This document shows, piece by piece, positions 5,349 to 26,010 of a stretch of 64,000 nt of DNA. Both the position numbers and the translations under genes were made by a program. The notes beneath the pieces were generated by a model. That model was not told the DNA's origin and did not search any database. It saw only the letters and a list, made by a program, of their open reading frames with translations. How positions within the stretch are numbered: position 1 is the stretch's first letter; the number at the start of each line of letters is the position of its first letter. Origin of the DNA: Polyangium fumosum (GTDB lineage: Bacteria > Myxococcota_A > Polyangia > Polyangiales > Polyangiaceae); assembly GCF_005144585.1 (NCBI RefSeq), contig NZ_SSMQ01000060.1, positions 1 to 64,000 of the forward strand, written 5' to 3'.

Positions 5349-6533
5349 CTACTCGTTAAGTGTTCGAAAGTAGTCGTTTATTTCCGAGCACGTGAACTGA
5401 TACACACATCGCTCCGCGGCGGCGCCATAAGGGCCCACGCCCGGCGCGTCGACAGGCCCGTCCCCGCTCCGCCAGCCGTGGAGGCGGGCGGTGGGGTCGG
5501 CTCGGAGCGGCAGCGGCAAAAAGGGCCGGATCGTGTGCGCGGCCGCGATCGCCGTGGGCACGAGGACGGCGAGCAGCATGGCAAGTCGCGCGCGCGGGGC
5601 CAAATCCTTACCGGTCCGAGCACACGCGACCACGAGGATCAAAGCCGAAGGCGCATACCAGTTCGGCTCGGGGGGCACGGCCCGCGCGAGGGCCGAGGCG
5701 GCGACGAGGGCCGTGAGGAGCAGGACGACGGCCCGGTCGGCGGGCGGAGAGGTGCGGAGGGCGCGGGCGCCGTGGAAGAGGGTCCAAGGGCTCCAGAGCA
5801 GCGCCTGGGCGAGCGCGGCCGCGGCGAGGGCCCCGAGGGCGCCGAGGAGCGTGAACACGGGCGCCTGCTGGGCGTAGGCGTGCCGGAGCTGGAAGGAGAG
5901 GCTCGGGGCGAGCAGCGGGCCGGCGAGGGCGAGGGGAGCGAGAGCGAGGAGGCGCTCGCCGAGGCGGCGGCGCGTGGCCAGGACGACGATGAGCGGGAAG
6001 AGGGGAAGGACGACCACCTTGGCGAGGGCGCCCGCGGCCCCCACGAGCCCGAGGCCGAGCGCGACGGCGAGCCTTCGTGGGGGGGACGCGGCGGCGGCCT
6101 CGGGCGCGGGCTCGGCCCACAACAGGGCGAGCACGAGGGCGAGGAGGGCGGGGCCGTCCGGGGTGGCGACGAAGCCGCCCGCGACCGGGAGGAGCGCAAA
6201 GCTCGACAGGAAAGCCGCGAGGTTCTGCCCGGAGGTGTCCGCGCCGCGGCGACGCGCGAGGGCCACCGTGGCGATCGAGAGGCCGAGCGAACACACGAGC
6301 GGGACGAGCCGGACGCGGAGCTCGACGGGCAAGGCCGTGAGCCGATCGACGAGCCGGAGCAGGAGCGGGAGGAGCGGCGGGTGGTCGACGAGCGGAGGCA
6401 GGGCGCCCGGCGCGCGCGCGGCGGCGAGGTAGTACGCCTCGTCCGGGGAGAGCTCCGTCCCGAGGGCCAGCGCGAGCCGGAGCGGCAGGGCGGCGAGGAC
6501 GATCGCCGCCCAGGCCGCGCGCGGGGCTCTCAG
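5349..6533 (-). CDS. GT39/ArnT-like integral membrane glycosyltransferase
   Basis: A multi-pass membrane protein of about 394 residues. The first luminal loop carries the family signature PDEAYYLA (the Asp-Glu of the dolichyl/undecaprenyl-phosphate-sugar-dependent GT-C fold), followed by VDHPPLLPLLLR and ATPDGPALL, both typical of PMT_2 proteins. It probably transfers a sugar from a polyprenyl-phosphate donor at the periplasmic face; the acceptor is unknown. No ATG, GTG or TTG lies in frame between the previous stop codon area and the first membrane helix. The likely start is a CTG at 6533 that overlaps the rlmB stop as CTGA, mimicking the ATGA couplings nearby. The last 30 residues are encoded by lower-GC DNA. 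Start uncertain, family fairly sure. Confidence 0.75.
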   Translation of the reverse strand: MRAPRAAWAAIVLAALPLRLALALGTELSPDEAYYLAAARAPGALPPLVDHPPLLPLLLRLVDRLTALPVELRVRLVPLVCSLGLSIATVALARRRGADTSGQNLAAFLSSFALLPVAGGFVATPDGPALLALVLALLWAEPAPEAAAASPPRRLAVALGLGLVGAAGALAKVVVLPLFPLIVVLATRRRLGERLLALAPLALAGPLLAPSLSFQLRHAYAQQAPVFTLLGALGALAAAALAQALLWSPWTLFHGARALRTSPPADRAVVLLLTALVAASALARAVPPEPNWYAPSALILVVACARTGKDLAPRARLAMLLAVLVPTAIAAAHTIRPFLPLPLRADPTARLHGWRSGDGPVDAPGVGPYGAAAERCVYQFTCSEINDYFRTLNE

Positions 6534-17285: not shown

Positions 17286-17463
17286 TGCGCATGTTCGTGA
17301 ACACGGATTCGCTGGATCCGCCCGCCCGGGGCACCCTGCAATCGGACTCGGATTTCGCCCGATTGAAAAAGAGCCACGACGTGGGATGCTGGCCGCGTCG
17401 TGGGGTGGGGGCCGGGCTCGGCTGGTGCGAGCTCTTTGCGCGGCGTTTCGGGGGGGGCTTGGG

Positions 17464-18540
17464 ATGGATGATTGGGGACCCGAGTCGGGGCGCGGCGGGG
17501 TGATTCTTCGGACGCTCGCCGAGCGTCCTTTCTGTTCGATCGTGATTCCTTGTTACAACGAAGAGGAGCACATCGAGCGGGTCGTGCGGGCGGCTTCGGG
17601 GCAACGATATCCGTCCGAGTGCCTGGAGATCTTCGTCGTCGACGGTCGCTCCCTCGACCGGACCCCGGACATCGTGCGCGCGCTCATCGCCGAGGATCCA
17701 CGCATCGTTTTGCTCGACAATCCCCAGCGCCTCCAGGCCGCGGCCCTGAACATCGGGATCAAGCGCTCCCGCGGGGACGTGATCATCCGCATGGACGCGC
17801 ACGCCGATTACGATCCCGGCTACGTGGCCGCGTCCGTCGCGGCCCTCCGGCGCACGGGCGCGCTCAACGTGGGCGGCGCCATGCGGCCCCTGGGAAAAAC
17901 CAGGTTTCAGAAAGCGCTCTGCGCGGCGCTCCAAAGCCCGCTCGGCGTGGGCGGATCGGCGTCCCGGGATCCCGAGCGCGAGGGATACGTGGAGAGCGTG
18001 TGGTGCGGCGCCTTCCGCCGCGAGGCCTTCGAACTCGCGGGCCTCTTCGACCCGGACGCGCGCACGAACGAGGACGCGGAGCTGAACCAGCGGATCCTTT
18101 CGCGCGGCGGCCGCATCTATCAGTCGCGCGACATCGTGGGGCATTATTATCCACGGTCGACGTTCGGCGGTTTGTTCCGGCAGTATTTCAATTATGGCGC
18201 GGGCCGCGCGCGGACGATCCTCCTGCGAGGGTTGCCGCCTTCGCCGAGGCCCCTGATCCCGTTCGCGACCTTTTCCACGTTCACCGTGCTCGTGGCGCTC
18301 GCGCTCCTTTATTCGCCGGCAGAGCCCGTTCTCCGCGCGGCCGTTGCCGTGTATACGCTGGCCATCGCCGTCGGGGCGGCGTGGGCCGCGTATCGCGTGG
18401 ACCGGCGCCTGGTGTTCCTCGTGGCGGCGATGTTTCCCGTGATGCACTTCGCGCACGGGCTCGGCTTCGCGGTCGGGCTCGTGCGGTACGCGCAGGCGCC
18501 GCTGCGCGACGCGGAGCCGGAGCGGCTGCCGGCCCGCTGA
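17464..18540 (+). CDS. GT2-family glycosyltransferase with C-terminal membrane segments (ExoA-like)
   Basis: A 358-residue protein. The GT-A domain starts CSIVIPCYNEEEHIERVV, binds the nucleotide-sugar metal with DAHADY (DxD-type) and has the acceptor-side EDAELNQRI (ED motif). A C-terminal pair or trio of helices follows (residues about 265-340). It resembles succinoglycan-type glucosyltransferases that extend a lipid-linked repeat unit. The open frame continues 152 codons upstream, but the homology begins just after the chosen ATG. It lies 28 nt from the next gene, so the two form an operon. Confidence 0.88.
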   Translation: MDDWGPESGRGGVILRTLAERPFCSIVIPCYNEEEHIERVVRAASGQRYPSECLEIFVVDGRSLDRTPDIVRALIAEDPRIVLLDNPQRLQAAALNIGIKRSRGDVIIRMDAHADYDPGYVAASVAALRRTGALNVGGAMRPLGKTRFQKALCAALQSPLGVGGSASRDPEREGYVESVWCGAFRREAFELAGLFDPDARTNEDAELNQRILSRGGRIYQSRDIVGHYYPRSTFGGLFRQYFNYGAGRARTILLRGLPPSPRPLIPFATFSTFTVLVALALLYSPAEPVLRAAVAVYTLAIAVGAAWAAYRVDRRLVFLVAAMFPVMHFAHGLGFAVGLVRYAQAPLRDAEPERLPAR

Positions 18541-18568: not shown

Positions 18569-19966
18569 ATGCTGGGCTTTTTCCCCGCGGGAGGGCTCGC
18601 CGTCACCGACGCGACGGCGGCGGTCACGGTCGAGCAAAGCGCGGTCACGGGCATCACGCCGGGCGGCGGGTACGGAATCGCGCTGACGAGCGTGGACGGT
18701 GCTGCGAGGATCGTCTCCCGCGCGTCACGCGCGGGCTTTTTGCTGGATATTTCAGGGCGGTACGGGCGGGCGCTCGCGTCGACGCAGGGGGCCACGTCCC
18801 CGCAGGACATCGCGGGCACGGCCGTGACGCGGCTCGATGTCGTGACCTCGCCGCGCACGGCGTTTTCGATCTCCGCGGACGCGCTGCTCGCGTCGCGGCT
18901 CGGGCTGCGCGCCACGAATGATTTGACCGCGCGGGATCCCTTCCTCCAGGGGAGGGTCATTTACACGCTGGGGAGCCGCCTCGGGTTTTCCGCGAGCACG
19001 TCGCCGCGGTCGTATCTGCGTTTCGAGGCCGGATACACGCAAGCGGGCGCCGTCGCCGCCGATCACCCCGAGGCGGTGGGGCTCGATAGCCACGCGGTCC
19101 TCGGGAGCGCGTCGTTTTCGTGGCTCGCCGCCCGTCGTTTCCGCCTCGGTCCGATCGTGCGGGCGGGCTTCACCCATTTCGAGCACGCGCTGCTCGACGT
19201 GGACCTCACGCGCGGGCCCGCGGACATCACCACGGTCTCGGCCCTCGGATCCGCGACGTTCGAGATCTCGCGGCGCATCCGCGGCGGCGCGGCGCTCGGG
19301 CTGACGGTGGCGAGCCCGCCGTCGTTCCTGCAGGACGAGGCCTCCCGCGTGATCACGCCCGACGCGCGGATCGACGCGCGGGTTGCCGGGCGTGGATACG
19401 GGGTTGTCGGGACGTACAGCTTTTCGTATTCGTCGCTCGGTCCGCGGATCGGGTTCGGGGCGCAACATGCGGCGGGGCTCGAAATGTGGAGCCGGCCGCG
19501 GGGGGGACGGGAGTTCCGGAGCGTGATCGCGCGCGGGATCCTGCGCTTCCGTCACGGCGAAGCGCCCCTCGCGACGCAGCCGCGGCTCGGGTTGCCGGAA
19601 GGGACGCCGCAGCCCGAGGGAAAGTTCGTGACGACGGCGGTGGCCGCGGGCGGTTCGCTCGGAATGCCGCTGACGCTGGGGATTCTGGTAACGGGCGGGG
19701 TCGATCTGGAGCTGATTTCGACGCGTTTCGACCCGGACCCGACGGGCGCGTCGGCGCCGACGTTCCGGACGATGGTGACGGTGGCGATTTCGGCGATCGC
19801 CTCGACGGATCCGATGCGGCGGGTGCCGAGGGATCCGGATCTGCAGGACCAGGACGCGCGGCCGGGGGTGCTCGACGAGGAGGCGGCGCGCAGGGCGGGG
19901 GGAGCGGCGGGGCGGAAGGAGACGACGGAGGGGGACGAGGACGAGGACGCGTTCTACGAGGAGTGA
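18569..19966 (+). CDS. Probable outer-membrane beta-barrel protein, unknown function
   Basis: A 465-residue protein that I do not recognise. It consists largely of alternating short strands (for example SRLGFSASTSPRSYLRFEAGYTQ, within residues about 125-160) with regular aromatic residues, the pattern of outer-membrane barrels. The last 45 residues are very acidic (ETTEGDEDEDAFYEE), which is unusual because barrels normally end in an aromatic residue. A GGAGG lies only 3 nt before the ATG, and a conventional signal peptide is not obvious, so the true N-terminus may differ. Position after the GT2 gene suggests a role in polysaccharide export or surface display. Confidence 0.6.
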   Translation: MLGFFPAGGLAVTDATAAVTVEQSAVTGITPGGGYGIALTSVDGAARIVSRASRAGFLLDISGRYGRALASTQGATSPQDIAGTAVTRLDVVTSPRTAFSISADALLASRLGLRATNDLTARDPFLQGRVIYTLGSRLGFSASTSPRSYLRFEAGYTQAGAVAADHPEAVGLDSHAVLGSASFSWLAARRFRLGPIVRAGFTHFEHALLDVDLTRGPADITTVSALGSATFEISRRIRGGAALGLTVASPPSFLQDEASRVITPDARIDARVAGRGYGVVGTYSFSYSSLGPRIGFGAQHAAGLEMWSRPRGGREFRSVIARGILRFRHGEAPLATQPRLGLPEGTPQPEGKFVTTAVAAGGSLGMPLTLGILVTGGVDLELISTRFDPDPTGASAPTFRTMVTVAISAIASTDPMRRVPRDPDLQDQDARPGVLDEEAARRAGGAAGRKETTEGDEDEDAFYEE

Positions 19967-19997
19967 TGGGATATGTGGGTTGGCTTGCGCAACTGGG

Positions 19998-20241
19998 GGG
20001 ATCGAGGCCTCGATCGAGCCGGTTGTGTGAGGCGCCGGGTGCGATCGAGGTGTCGAGGGGACCGAGCGCCTGAGGCGGAAGGGGCGATCGAGGTGTCGAG
20101 CGACCCGGTTGCGTGAGGCGTCGGGGGGGATTGAGGTCGGCATCGACCCGGTTGCGTGGGGCACGAGGGGCGATCGAGACGTCGGGGGACCCGGTTGCGC
20201 GAGGCGCAGGGGGCGATCCAGGCGGGGATCGCATCCGGTGC
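19998..20241. repeat. Degenerate tandem repeat, period 43 bp (about 5.6 units)
   Basis: Units begin at 19998, 20041, 20084, 20128, 20170 and 20213, so the spacing is 43, 43, 44, 42 and 43. The shared core is GCGATCGAGG, then about 12 variable bases, then ACCCGGTTGCGTGAGGCG. The copies have diverged, so the array is not recent. Minus-strand frames through it show the same periodic Pro/Arg pattern but have no start or homology, so I treat it as non-coding. It lies between the outer-membrane protein gene and the McrB-like operon. Confidence 0.8.
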
Positions 20242-20281
20242 GCGTGTTCCTACCTCAACCCCACGCGTTCCTTCGGTGAAC

Positions 20282-20344
20282 CGCAGGGGCTCCTGCGTCA
20301 ACACATAGACGCCTCGTGCGTTCGCACGCAGGGGACCCTCTGCG
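20282..20344. promoter_or_regulatory. Three consecutive hairpins upstream of the McrB-like operon
   Basis: Hairpin 1 has arms 20282-20287 and 20292-20297 (6 bp, 4-nt loop). Hairpin 2 has arms 20315-20320 and 20323-20328 (6 bp). Hairpin 3 has arms 20327-20334 and 20337-20344 (8 bp with one wobble) and shares two bases with hairpin 2. Hairpins 1 and 3 share the CGCAGGGG word. About 180 nt of relatively A/T-rich DNA separates them from the ATG at 20523. They could be operators, a leader RNA or the terminator of the upstream gene; I cannot choose among these. Confidence 0.45.
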
Positions 20345-20522
20345 ACATGTGGTACATTGTGTCCTAGCTTCAAGTACTTTCACGCTGTCCCAGGCTACTT
20401 GTACGGACGCCAGCAACGCTGGTAGGTTCGAGCCTCTCCATGCCTGTCTCTCTGGAACACGAGCGAGCAACGCTTCGTGACGTACATGCGGACAGGTGGA
20501 CGCGCCCAGGAGCCTGGCCTCG

Positions 20523-22763
20523 ATGAGCACCACGAACGGCACGACCGAGCCCGCAGCAACCAAAGACGCCCCTTCGAGCACGGACGCGGATGATCCGATC
20601 CCGGCCGCGGCCGAGAGGCTTGCCAAGCGGCTGCGCCCCGTGATCCACCCTGGCATCCAGGCCCTCGGAAAGAAAACCTTGGCGAGTTTTACCTGGGAGC
20701 GTCAGGGAAAGCGCCAATCTACCGCCGTTGTCCTCAAGGAGGTGAAGGACCAGCGTGCGGGGGCCTCGAACGTGATTTTCACCCTGGCTTGGCAGCCCAA
20801 GGGTGGCAAAGAAGTCGAGATTCAGGTCAACGCCACGATTACCATTCAGATTCAGCGGGGCAGGACGGCGTTGCTGCTCCAGATCCGGATCTATGACGGC
20901 ACTCGCACGGTCAATCTGGGTCGAGGCGAGAGTATCCAGAAGTGGGAAGCTGGAGAGAAGAACGTCGTCGTATTTCCTTATCCGAGTTCTGCGATCGGCG
21001 TCGAACGTGCTGGTCAAGTTTGGTTCCCGAAGGACCCGTCGAGTCCCGTCGTGACTCGTGAACTCGGCTTCGAAGGCAAGGCGACATATGGGGATCTGGC
21101 GCCCTACTGGCCTCAGTTCAGCGAAAAGGGGTGGCTCGTGGAGCTGCCTCCGTTGCCTGCTCCACTGGGAGAGGCAATGTCCAAGGAGGTTCCGGAGAGC
21201 TGGGGCAAGACGGTATTGGCATTCGCCATATGGGCCATGCTGGTGCAGCCCTTCCAGCAATCCGAGTCGGGGGACGCAGAGGCCACGGTCGATCCCACGG
21301 CGTACGGCCTGCCGCCGGTGGCGAGCTACTGGCCGCAGCGCGCGGTCAACCTCGATCCGAACCGCGTCTATGCCGAGCTCTCGAAGACGTTGCTCTTGCC
21401 CTGGCATCTCGTTGCGGCCGCCTGCGCGTCGCTCAATGCTGGCAAACACGTGATCTTCACCGGGCCGCCGGGGTGCGGCAAATCGAAGCTGGCGATCGCG
21501 CTCGCGCAGATGGTCCGCAACGCCGAGCCGGTCATCGCGACCGCGTCGCCTGCCTGGACGGCCGGCGATCTCGTGGGTCGTTACCTGCCGCGCCGTGATG
21601 GCAAGGGCCTTGAATTCAAGCCTGGTTTCTTCCTGCGCGCCGTCGAGTCGAACCGCTGCCTCGTGATCGACGAGTTCAACCGAGCGAACATCGATCAATG
21701 CTTCGGTGAATTGTTCGCCGTGTTCGCGGGTGATCCCGTGGAACTGCCGTTCGAGCAGGCCCTCGAGGATACCGCGGGCCAGGCTGCGGCGCTTCCCGTG
21801 ACGAAAGCCGTCGACGGATCGGTCGCGGCGGACGGCGCAGGCGCCACCGGCGATGCGGACGGGACCACCCTACCGGCACCCAAAGAGCCACGACACGCGA
21901 CGGTCCGCATTCTCCCCACCACGTATACGCGACGGCACAGCGCTCGGCCCGAGGAGGAAGGAGTTGCTTATCGCGATTACAAGGTGAGCCCCGAGTTCCG
22001 CCTGGTCGGCACGATGAACGACGCGGATCGCGCGCAGCTTCATCAGCTCTCGTTCGCGTTGCTCCGGCGATTCGATATCCTGCGGGTCGAGGCGCCGGCC
22101 CCGGAGAAGGTCAAGGAGTTCATCGGAGAGCGGATCGTGAAGATCTCCGACACGATGGACAAGGCCGCCTACCAGTTCGAGGGGCAGGGGACGAAGGAGC
22201 TCTTGCAGCGCCTGCGTGCCGAGTATCTCGAACCGCTCTTCAGCAACGTCGCGCCGAAGAACGGCGGCGCACAGCCCTTCGTCGACCTCGTGGCGGAGCG
22301 AGCCATCGGTCTCGCGACGGTGGAGGATATCCTGCGGTTTTTGGCCGAAGGGCTGCGAAGCCCGAACGAGGGCGAACGCGTGTCCTCGGGCGGGGTCAAG
22401 GAGCCGGGGCTCGCCGCGGGCGCGTCGTATCTGGCGATGGGGCTCGTGCTCAGCGTGTTCCCGCAGCTCGACGCGCTCGACACGGTCCGTCGCTGGGCTG
22501 CCATCGAGCACATCCTCGCCGTCTTCCACCGGGAAGGCAAAGGGGCGCCTTTCGTGCACATCGAGGGGAAACGGGACGACAAGACGGGGAAAGTGTCCTA
22601 TCAGCTCGTCAAACCGTCCGCACGCTCCTTCCGACCCAAAGACATCAACAAGGACAATGAGATCTCCATCCCCGAGTACCTCATCGGGGAGTTGTCGCTG
22701 CAATACCAAGACATCGGTGACGACCGATGGGAAAGCCTGGTCCGTCCCCCAGCGGGCGCATGA
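20523..22763 (+). CDS. McrB-like AAA+ NTPase with unrecognised N-terminal domain
   Basis: A 746-residue protein. Residues about 40-165 form a beta-rich domain I cannot assign (around KRLRPVIHPG, VIFTLAWQPKGG and VVVFPYPSS). The AAA+ motor follows: Walker A G314-S321 (GPPGCGKS), Walker B V381-E384 running into the McrB-type VIDEFNRANI and FGELF, a sensor-1/McrB signature at 497-503 (TMNDADR) and an arginine pair R515-R516 (ALLRRFD). A low-complexity insertion (about 425-456) separates Walker B from the signature. McrB proteins hydrolyse GTP and drive a McrC nuclease. MNTADR is the usual form, so the Thr-to-Asp change here may alter nucleotide choice. A GTG at 20496 is an alternative start. Codon use is less GC-rich than in the neighbours, and the nuclease gene follows 3 nt after the stop. 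Confidence 0.85.
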   Translation: MSTTNGTTEPAATKDAPSSTDADDPIPAAAERLAKRLRPVIHPGIQALGKKTLASFTWERQGKRQSTAVVLKEVKDQRAGASNVIFTLAWQPKGGKEVEIQVNATITIQIQRGRTALLLQIRIYDGTRTVNLGRGESIQKWEAGEKNVVVFPYPSSAIGVERAGQVWFPKDPSSPVVTRELGFEGKATYGDLAPYWPQFSEKGWLVELPPLPAPLGEAMSKEVPESWGKTVLAFAIWAMLVQPFQQSESGDAEATVDPTAYGLPPVASYWPQRAVNLDPNRVYAELSKTLLLPWHLVAAACASLNAGKHVIFTGPPGCGKSKLAIALAQMVRNAEPVIATASPAWTAGDLVGRYLPRRDGKGLEFKPGFFLRAVESNRCLVIDEFNRANIDQCFGELFAVFAGDPVELPFEQALEDTAGQAAALPVTKAVDGSVAADGAGATGDADGTTLPAPKEPRHATVRILPTTYTRRHSARPEEEGVAYRDYKVSPEFRLVGTMNDADRAQLHQLSFALLRRFDILRVEAPAPEKVKEFIGERIVKISDTMDKAAYQFEGQGTKELLQRLRAEYLEPLFSNVAPKNGGAQPFVDLVAERAIGLATVEDILRFLAEGLRSPNEGERVSSGGVKEPGLAAGASYLAMGLVLSVFPQLDALDTVRRWAAIEHILAVFHREGKGAPFVHIEGKRDDKTGKVSYQLVKPSARSFRPKDINKDNEISIPEYLIGELSLQYQDIGDDRWESLVRPPAGA

Positions 22764-22766
22764 CCC

Positions 22767-24329
22767 ATGAAGCGTACCGCTCTCGCCTCGATCGCTCCGC
22801 CGGTGGCCGCGGCTCCTCCCGGGAGTCGCGCTGCGTCGCGGCCTGACCTCGATCTCTTCGTCGATCAAGTGGGCTGGCTCGGCGCGCATCTCCGCGATCG
22901 GAGCCGGCTCAGCGTGATGAGCTGGATCGGGCGGGCCTTGCGCCCCGAGGTCTGCGACGAATTGCGCTCGTTTTTTCGGGTGGATCATCAGATCCACATC
23001 CAGGCAGAACGCGAGCTGCTCGCGCTCCTCCGCCGGCCCTGGCAAAAGCAGGCCCCTCGATATTCGAGGTTGGACATGCCGGAGCGCAATGTGGATTGGA
23101 CGCGTACGCACGTCGAGGAGCTCACGTCGCCTCCGTCCCGCTTCTGGGCGCGGGATGTCGTCCCCATGCTCGATGCTGGGCTCCTCGGCGGGTTGTGCTC
23201 GCTCGGGAGGACCATGCTCGACCTGGGCACGCTGGGGCCCCTCAGCGAGGAGCGGCGGGCCGTACGGGAGGCCTTGCGGGACGCGATGGCGCAAGTCGCC
23301 CGGACCATCGGGCGTCGCCATGGGGCCTATACGCATCTGCATGAACAACGACTCCTACGCATGGATAGGGAGACGCGTTCGAGCGCGCAGGCGCTCCGAG
23401 CCTATCTCGCGTTCTGGCAAGATCGGTTCGGCGCGGAAGGCGACACGGAGCGTTTGCGCGCGTTCGCGAAGGAGATCGAGGAGGCCGACCTGCGTTGCCA
23501 GAGGCGGACGCTGGATAGCCTCCTCGAATTGTCGGTCTCGATAGCCATTGCGCGCGCGGCCCAGGAGACGCAGGACACGGTCGACTTGCCCGAGGGGGTG
23601 CGGTGGGAGCTCGAGGATGTCGACGAGCGAGATGAGCGCAACGTCCCACGGATCCTGCTTCGTGCCGGCGCGCTGTCTTGCACGATCTCGAAGAATGCCC
23701 CGAAAGGGGATGCTCTCGTGCCCTTGCTCGCGGACATGGGCATCGAGGCGCGGGGGAATCAGCCTGATATCGTGCTGACGTTCGCGCAGAAACACGCGGA
23801 CGGGCACGAGGACCGGCTCGTCGTGCTCGCGGACGCCAAGCGCAATGCCGAGCACGACGGGAGGGGATATCTGGCGACGTCCGTCGAGACGGCAGCGGTG
23901 TACGCCGTCTCGTTTGGCCACCTCATGGGCGTGCGGTTTCATCCGGACGGGCACGGGCGAATCGATGGGGATGTCCTTCCGGCCGTGTCGCTGTTCTGTC
24001 GTCAGGGCGTGAAGAAGGTCGCCGGCGCTGGGCCTCGACAAGAAGACATCGTCGCGCGGCTCCGGGCGCCCCAACGGTTGCCCGCGGTCATGGCCCTCGA
24101 TTTCCAGCATTTCTTCGGGGGCGAAGGGGGAACGAGGTGGTCCCCCGCCATCGTCGGCGCTTGGTTCGGGCGGATTGCGCGCGAGGCGTCGGCGGCGTTC
24201 CGGCACAGGGCGGCAGAACATCGTTCGCAAAGCGGCGGAGGACAGGAGCGCGGGAGCCAAGCCGCCCGAACCGCGCCCGCCGGGCGCCGTGAGCGGGTAC
24301 GGCGGGATGACGGAGGGGATGCCGCATAG
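22767..24329 (+). CDS. McrC-like PD-(D/E)XK nuclease partner (DUF2357-type candidate)
   Basis: A 520-residue protein. The first 300 residues are mainly helical with no motif I recognise. The nuclease core is readable at residues 333-358: P333-D334 (NQPDIVLTF), 21 residues, then D356-A-K358 (VVLADAKRN), followed by a helix (ETAAVYAVSFGH) that fits the core alpha helix of the fold. McrC proteins and DUF2357/PDDEXK_7 proteins carry this motif in the same C-terminal setting and work with McrB-type ATPases to cleave DNA. The last 60 residues are Arg/Gly/Gln-rich and probably disordered. The gene begins 3 nt after the ATPase gene and is surely co-expressed with it. The family name is inference from motif and context. 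Confidence 0.72.
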   Translation: MKRTALASIAPPVAAAPPGSRAASRPDLDLFVDQVGWLGAHLRDRSRLSVMSWIGRALRPEVCDELRSFFRVDHQIHIQAERELLALLRRPWQKQAPRYSRLDMPERNVDWTRTHVEELTSPPSRFWARDVVPMLDAGLLGGLCSLGRTMLDLGTLGPLSEERRAVREALRDAMAQVARTIGRRHGAYTHLHEQRLLRMDRETRSSAQALRAYLAFWQDRFGAEGDTERLRAFAKEIEEADLRCQRRTLDSLLELSVSIAIARAAQETQDTVDLPEGVRWELEDVDERDERNVPRILLRAGALSCTISKNAPKGDALVPLLADMGIEARGNQPDIVLTFAQKHADGHEDRLVVLADAKRNAEHDGRGYLATSVETAAVYAVSFGHLMGVRFHPDGHGRIDGDVLPAVSLFCRQGVKKVAGAGPRQEDIVARLRAPQRLPAVMALDFQHFFGGEGGTRWSPAIVGAWFGRIAREASAAFRHRAAEHRSQSGGGQERGSQAARTAPAGRRERVRRDDGGDAA

Positions 24330-24357
24330 CTGCCCGAGCGCTCCCCGTGCCTTCCGA

Positions 24358-25769: not shown

Positions 25770-26010
25770 GCGCGGCGCACCCCCCCAAGCCCCTCCGTTG
25801 ACGCTTGGGGGCGTCCCGCGGACACGCCGCGCGACCCCCCCAAACCTCTCGGTTGACGCTTGGGGGGGTCACGCGGACACGCCGCGCGACCCCCCCACCT
25901 CTCGGTTGACGCTTGGGGGGGTCACGCGGACACGCCGCGCGACCCCCCCAAACCCCCGTCGACGCTCGGGAACCACGTTCGGACACGCCGAACGACGCCC
26001 CCAAACCCCC
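25770..26010. repeat. Tandem hairpin repeat, period 53-55 bp (about 4.5 units)
   Basis: Units start at 25798, 25853, 25906 and 25959, and a half unit precedes the first. Each unit folds on itself: a G-run/C-run stem (TTGGGGGGGTC with GACCCCCCCAA) encloses a second stem (CGCGG with CCGCG). In the fourth unit the inner stem changes to CGTTCGG with CCGAACG, keeping the pairing. It lies between gyrA and the sugar transferase gene, upstream of the latter. The frames open through it are periodic and not believable as genes. Confidence 0.85.

Follow-up and report, generated by a model that had tools for sequence, protein, structure and literature searches.

A candidate divergent McrBC-type defence pair in Polyangium fumosum

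The best described relatives of the locus discussed here are the two-gene McrBC systems. McrB of Escherichia coli carries the reader domain DUF3578 (PMC11090510), and the McrB proteins share the consensus MNxxDRS (PMC7680126), in which the NxxD part is required for GTP hydrolysis (PMC11090510). The partner McrC has a finger made of a helical bundle and a beta stalk that ends in a loop-helix-loop (PMC7680126). Here we describe a gene pair in a 64,000-nucleotide (nt) stretch of Polyangium fumosum DNA (contig NZ_SSMQ01000060.1, positions 1 to 64,000, assembly GCF_005144585.1), referred to as the window. Two open reading frames (ORFs) lie on its plus strand, gene A at 20523-22763 (746 amino acids, aa) and gene B at 22767-24329 (520 aa), separated by 3 nt, exactly as a first-pass annotation of the sequence had placed them. 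We consider it reasonably likely that A and B constitute a divergent McrBC-type defence pair, one that appears to be McrBC-type in ancestry and is probably so in mode of action.

Relation of the two genes to McrB and McrC

The pair was found at ten loci: the window, L040 (Polyangium sp. 15x6, genome G005), L003/L028 (G036), L044 (G043), L041 (G022), L042, L043, L051 (G085), L052 (G081) and L055, the last being the Salinibacter ruber plasmid pSR116. A neighbourhood survey, proposed in the first-pass annotation, shows A directly ahead of B on one strand in all ten, with a spacing that ranges from an 8-nt overlap to a 35-nt gap.

The McrB hallmarks that the same annotation read in the ATPase are borne out. 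When the profile of the A family was compared with solved structures the top matches were E. coli McrB (6hz4, E 1.6e-19) and Thermococcus gammatolerans McrB (6ut3, E 1.2e-14), while other AAA+ structures trailed at E 5.7e-6 or worse; McrB was also the first match by plain sequence search, and Pfam assigns the protein to AAA_5 (E 1.8e-19). The Walker A motif GPPGCGKS is at 21462-21485 (residues 314-321), the Walker B motif LVIDEFNR at 21660-21683 (residues 380-387) and the NxxD signature MNDADR at 22014-22031 (residues 498-503). This core is complete in all ten A proteins, the signature taking the form MND[AV]DR in each; the window's A reads MNDADRA, and the terminal serine of the McrB consensus is present in 5 out of 10 members. 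Judged by these motifs and matches the core of A is McrB-like, and because of the NxxD motif, together with the family, A is probably a GTPase. The predicted model of A has a mean predicted local distance difference test score (pLDDT) of only 44.7, and its structural re-alignment returned general AAA+ proteins, dynein first, with no McrB in 50 rows. PADLOC gave A no more than weak general matches.

All ten family members fall into a single group (100/99) when 34 AAA+ cores are placed in a tree. A 100/100 branch parts the family, its siblings (proteins matched in the AAA+ core alone, which we did not count as family) and six further rows from 10 McrBs (E. coli McrB and nine that adjoin a PF10117 match) and three more rows. 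The root was placed just to draw the tree, which has several long branches. A PF10117 McrC match (G000:C171:32651-33412, locus L070) adjoining an McrB-like AAA+ gene is present in the window's own genome as well.

The relation of B to McrC was traced through intermediate families. Compared with the partner proteins of four sibling McrB-like genes, B gave a probability of 93.5 (E 2.4e-7, score 62.1), and none of 50 column-shuffled controls scored above 20.8; with six sibling partners the probability was 95.9 (E 6.2e-9). The six partners in turn matched 12 McrC proteins over 65 columns (probability 83.6, E 8.2e-6, score 51.1; none of 40 shuffled controls scored above 15.6), and the four partners alone gave a probability of 24 (E 8.2e-4). 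The six-partner link excludes the partner from L061, which is McrC-like by itself (PF10117 E 6.9e-4, below the cut-off), because that likeness could have carried an earlier link which included it (E 2.6e-8). The 65-column link centres on the RGR(V/I)D stretch of McrC, and here B has R107-x-x-D110-W111, invariant in 10 out of 10 members.

A second, independent route is the predicted structure. The model of B has a mean pLDDT of 61.3, with block means of 56-92 across residues 31-310, and contains a helical bundle holding a strand (99-102), a helix (111-117) and a strand (126-129), followed by a mixed strand and helix part; this order of elements agrees with the description of the McrC finger in PMC7680126. 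In structure re-alignment (VIA-align 2) all four top rows are McrC chains: 6ut5_G (Z 6.3, root-mean-square deviation (rmsd) 7.4, 140 residues aligned), 6ut7_G (Z 6.2, rmsd 7.4, 141 aligned), 6ut6_G (Z 5.9, rmsd 7.7, 134 aligned) and 6hz4_M (Z 5.8, rmsd 7.7, 134 aligned); the next row is an unrelated protein with Z 5.0. The putative finger-like region covers 22962-23423 (approximately residues 66-219). Taken together, the sequence profiles and the structure re-alignment support a remote relation of B to McrC by way of intermediate families.

PD-(D/E)XK folds have the order strand, strand, helix. The nuclease core of this type that had been proposed for B, D334 ... D356-A-K358 (23766-23840), is invariant at its three residues in all ten proteins, and the model places strands at 335-342 and 348-355 and a helix at 365-386 around it; this part of the model is of low confidence (block means 34-64), and the fold itself is therefore putative. 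B is indeed larger than E. coli McrC (348 aa), as had been remarked.

The ends of gene A

The N-terminal domain of A (20523-21380, approximately residues 1-286) is a putative target-sensing module, predicted as a helix followed by strands in a low-confidence model. The earlier reader could not assign this region of nearly 300 residues to a modified-base reader, and our searches agree: Pfam gave no match for five family members but one at E 0.31, and the domain profile matched no solved structure (best E 0.68). In other words, no known reader such as DUF3578 or EVE was recovered by either route, though the domain may still be a diverged form of one. Its fold was not identified because the model of A is too poor. 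The domain profile is found in 5 out of 59 genomes, exactly those having B, and the domain may be a new sensor that detects foreign or modified DNA.

At the other end, A carries an EF-hand-like loop, DINKDNEISIPE, at 22641-22676 (residues 707-718), ahead of the C-terminal helix. The pattern D-x-[DN]-x-[DN]-x-x-[IV]-S-x-x-E occurs near the C terminus, at a common place in the alignment, in 8 out of 10 A proteins (those of L051 and L055 lack it); within it the would-be metal-binding positions, assigned from the EF-hand layout, are kept and the other positions vary. Among 5000 protein shuffles a similar pattern arose in 216 anywhere and in 18 within the last 60 residues. Pfam EF-hand models matched 3 of 5 C-terminal segments, all below the cut-off (best L041, E 0.0029, 18.3 bits versus 30), and did not match the segment of the window's A; the model of A has a helix after the loop and none before it, at low confidence. 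No such loop was found in the AAA+ siblings at L033, L035, L036 and L037. One unrelated gene of L037 contains the pattern.

Binding of calcium by this loop is possible. A far more speculative proposal, which we hold to be improbable, is a calcium-responsive restriction motor, in which the loop would bind Ca2+ and gate either the assembly of the ring or its coupling to the nuclease; the ion influx at phage entry would then license attack on DNA chosen by a reader of a new family. Among the papers listed by literature searches on EF-hands or calcium in McrB-like or AAA+ restriction proteins, none deals with such a loop, as judged by titles and the opening lines of abstracts. If the loop is a real calcium site in an McrB-like motor, it would offer a simple handle on regulation.

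A patchily distributed cassette

B is present in 5 out of 59 genomes, the window's own counted, and in 6 out of 377 genomes of the phylum sample, where one of the six (G200, E 6.3e-4 over 73 positions) was dropped as a chance match. Full-length A (E 1e-40 or better) occurs in the phylum sample in the same five genomes as B. A plasmid search with B returned one record, Salinibacter pSR116. Phage records gave no match to B and viral contigs none that was confirmed; with A, the viral contigs gave two distant AAA+ matches. One locus with an McrB-like AAA+ core, L038 (G023:C2), has that core in a 2330-aa protein bracketed by two 141-aa genes (5738-6163 and 17363-17788, approximately 11.6 kb apart) with identical printed starts, an arrangement that resembles the target duplication left by an insertion.

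Within the genus the pair is found in 2 out of 6 genomes and the site is empty in the other four (G001-G004). The pair is therefore not a housekeeping locus fixed in all relatives; it was such fixation that the first-pass annotation had named as fatal to its proposal. The two genes that flank the site are convergent in G001-G004, where their matched ends are 75-453 bp apart; in the window and G005 the distance between them is 4.4-4.5 kb, with the pair inside. Alignment of the empty sites with the window breaks off at 20247 (L086 and L089), 20218 (L087) or 19966 (L088) and in each of the four picks up again at 24357 or 24358; in G001 approximately 14 bp stand in place of approximately 4.1 kb. 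The cassette absent from the four congeners is accordingly drawn at 20248-24357 on the plus strand and comprises an upstream leader, A, B and a short tail. No target-site duplication was seen by eye at its edges. The empty site of G004 (L086, approximately 1740-1900, reverse complement) contains a short segment bounded by inverted copies of one sequence, as a small non-coding mobile element would be.

The A proteins of the window and G005 share 93% identity, as do the B proteins, and three flanking genes share 86-96%; the silent divergence is 0.45 for A, 0.19 for B and 0.12-0.35 for the flanks. Both flanking genes of G004 are closer to the window (96% and 95%) than those of G005 (93% and 89%), yet G004 lacks the pair, and for this reason it seems more likely that G004 lost an older insertion than that the pair was gained twice in recent times. 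A 43-bp tandem repeat (5.4 copies, 19995-20224) lies just left of the cassette; it can be aligned as well in three genomes whose site is empty (G001, G003 and G004) and so probably predates the insertion.

Both genes behave as real genes: compared between the window and Polyangium sp. 15x6, the rate of amino-acid-changing substitutions is 0.07 (A) and 0.18 (B) times the silent rate, and A and B are thus under purifying selection. The ORF of A begins upstream with a GTG at 20496, and the chosen start is the ATG at 20523, which has an AGGAG ending 10 nt ahead and coincides in the alignment with the start of the G005 homologue. The less GC-rich codon use that had been read as a sign of transfer holds, as the G+C content at third codon positions of A (0.787) and B (0.789) is the lowest of 51 window genes (median 0.908; genes of at least 300 bases from a simple purpose-made gene caller). 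The same caller found nothing besides A and B between the flanking genes. No promoter-like site was found at the locus and terminator-like sites were at chance level (3 versus 2.4 expected). The position between glycosyltransferase genes, also taken to suggest transfer, stands in part: by eye, from the sequence and with no search run, 17464-18540 reads as a glycosyltransferase and the right flank as a sugar transferase, but the immediate left neighbour (18569-19966, 465 aa) was not so assigned. A second tandem array, with a unit of approximately 53-55 bp, lies to the right of the sugar-transferase-like gene (25771-26009).

Strong PADLOC defence matches were found near 4 out of 9 scanned pairs (L040 was left out as its flanks are the same as the window's). 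In L043 a BrxHI gene (E 3.6e-272) is 6.6 kb from the pair and is followed by BrxD (1.1e-166). In L052 a HipA-like ORF with a PDC-M03A match (1.5e-41) starts 1 nt after B, with a HIRAN protein next. On the Salinibacter plasmid B is followed by a dGTPase (1.2e-137), a helicase with short DrmD matches and a DrmMI-like methyltransferase (3.7e-96), and in G085 a type IIG/DrmMI-like methyltransferase is approximately 20 kb from the pair. Scans of nearest neighbours added an HNH protein in L041 (9.9e-12) and a 38-residue match in L042 (1.3e-7). In a census of McrBC systems one branch is said to be linked with DISARM-like genes and is deferred to a later publication (PMC11090510), and because of this branch the present family may sit unnamed in the census dataset.

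Weighing the readings and comparison with known systems

If the pair is of McrBC type, A would form an AAA+ ring that hydrolyses GTP, as the family and the NxxD motif suggest, and its N-terminal domain would recognise some feature of foreign, probably modified, DNA. By analogy with McrBC, the helical finger of B would enter the ring and stimulate hydrolysis, and the PD-(D/E)XK-type domain would cut DNA once the motor runs or stalls.

A number of results weigh against this reading. No B protein has a Pfam match below E 0.01 (10 out of 10), the Foldseek search of the PDB with the B model returned nothing that reached E 0.001, and the Z values of 5.8-6.3 in the re-alignment are weak alone, since a Z under 8 can reflect a common arrangement. 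The direct profile comparison of B with McrC by hhalign, in which some McrC reading frames begin ahead of the true start, was not significant (E 0.12, probability 0.5), though its score of 21.3 slightly exceeds 17.4, the maximum of 40 shuffles; pooling B with its siblings gave E 0.079 or 0.042. As to context, PADLOC had no match for the 8 window neighbours nor for the neighbours of L044 (3 genes) and L028 (2 genes), and in L043, L051/L054, L052 and L055 the scanned neighbours were picked by eye as defence-like, so that the 4 out of 9 has no background rate. Our confidence was lowered slightly because the defence context partly rests on these choices. NCBIfam and PADLOC did not identify the window's B, hhalign comparisons of B with single sibling partners gave no identification, and PDB searches with B reached E 0.038 by sequence, to an unrelated enzyme, and E 0.37 by profile. 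Of the checks first suggested, profile search led from A to McrB and Foldseek led nowhere for B. The proposed variant of the McrBC/DUF2357 type with a different recognition domain is supported by the McrB core and by the intermediates between B and McrC, and not by the direct comparison. With Pfam missing all ten B proteins and PADLOC the window's B, McrBC-like defence seems to extend past the current family models.

The best surviving alternative, in our view an unlikely one, is a housekeeping role such as DNA repair, in which the AAA+ ring would remodel protein or DNA and B would trim. The neighbours in the window without PADLOC matches suit it, and purifying selection fits any useful function; the patchy presence with empty sites in the genus, the copy on a Salinibacter plasmid and the defence genes near some pairs speak against it. 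Rather unlikely as well, and a shade more so, is abortive infection, where B would cut host and phage DNA alike after A senses infection: the putative sensing domain of A matches no known family by Pfam or PDB profile, and the HipA-like kinase ORF of L052 could couple the pair to growth arrest, but such a neighbour is seen in one examined locus only. An RNA-targeting CoCoNuT-type system is highly improbable: it likewise joins an McrB-like GTPase to an McrC homologue, but its GTPases have NxD (PMC11090510), against NxxD in 10 out of 10 here, and no RNA-binding Pfam domain was found in the ten B proteins, in which coiled coils were not tested.

The favoured McrBC-type reading can finally be set beside the siblings and EcoKMcrBC. 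The sibling McrB-like proteins, e.g. the EVE-AAA_5 protein of L034, have AAA+ cores on the family's side of the 100/100 branch but other N-terminal parts. At L033, L035, L036 and L037 the McrB-like protein is joined to a partner of 406-417 aa that is remotely related to B (at least three sibling partners were given to Pfam, without a match at the thresholds used), and the AAA+ genes of these four loci differ in having no EF-hand-like loop. EcoKMcrBC of E. coli K-12 differs from the pair in the Pfam reader domain of its McrB (DUF3578, PMC11090510), none being found by Pfam in A, in the C-terminal EF-hand-like loop that A has, and in a shorter nuclease subunit that, unlike B, the Pfam McrBC model recognises. 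It resembles the pair in having two adjacent genes with the AAA+ gene first, in the Walker motifs and NxxD of the motor, and in a nuclease subunit that combines a D...DxK motif with a helical, finger-like region, which in B is putative.

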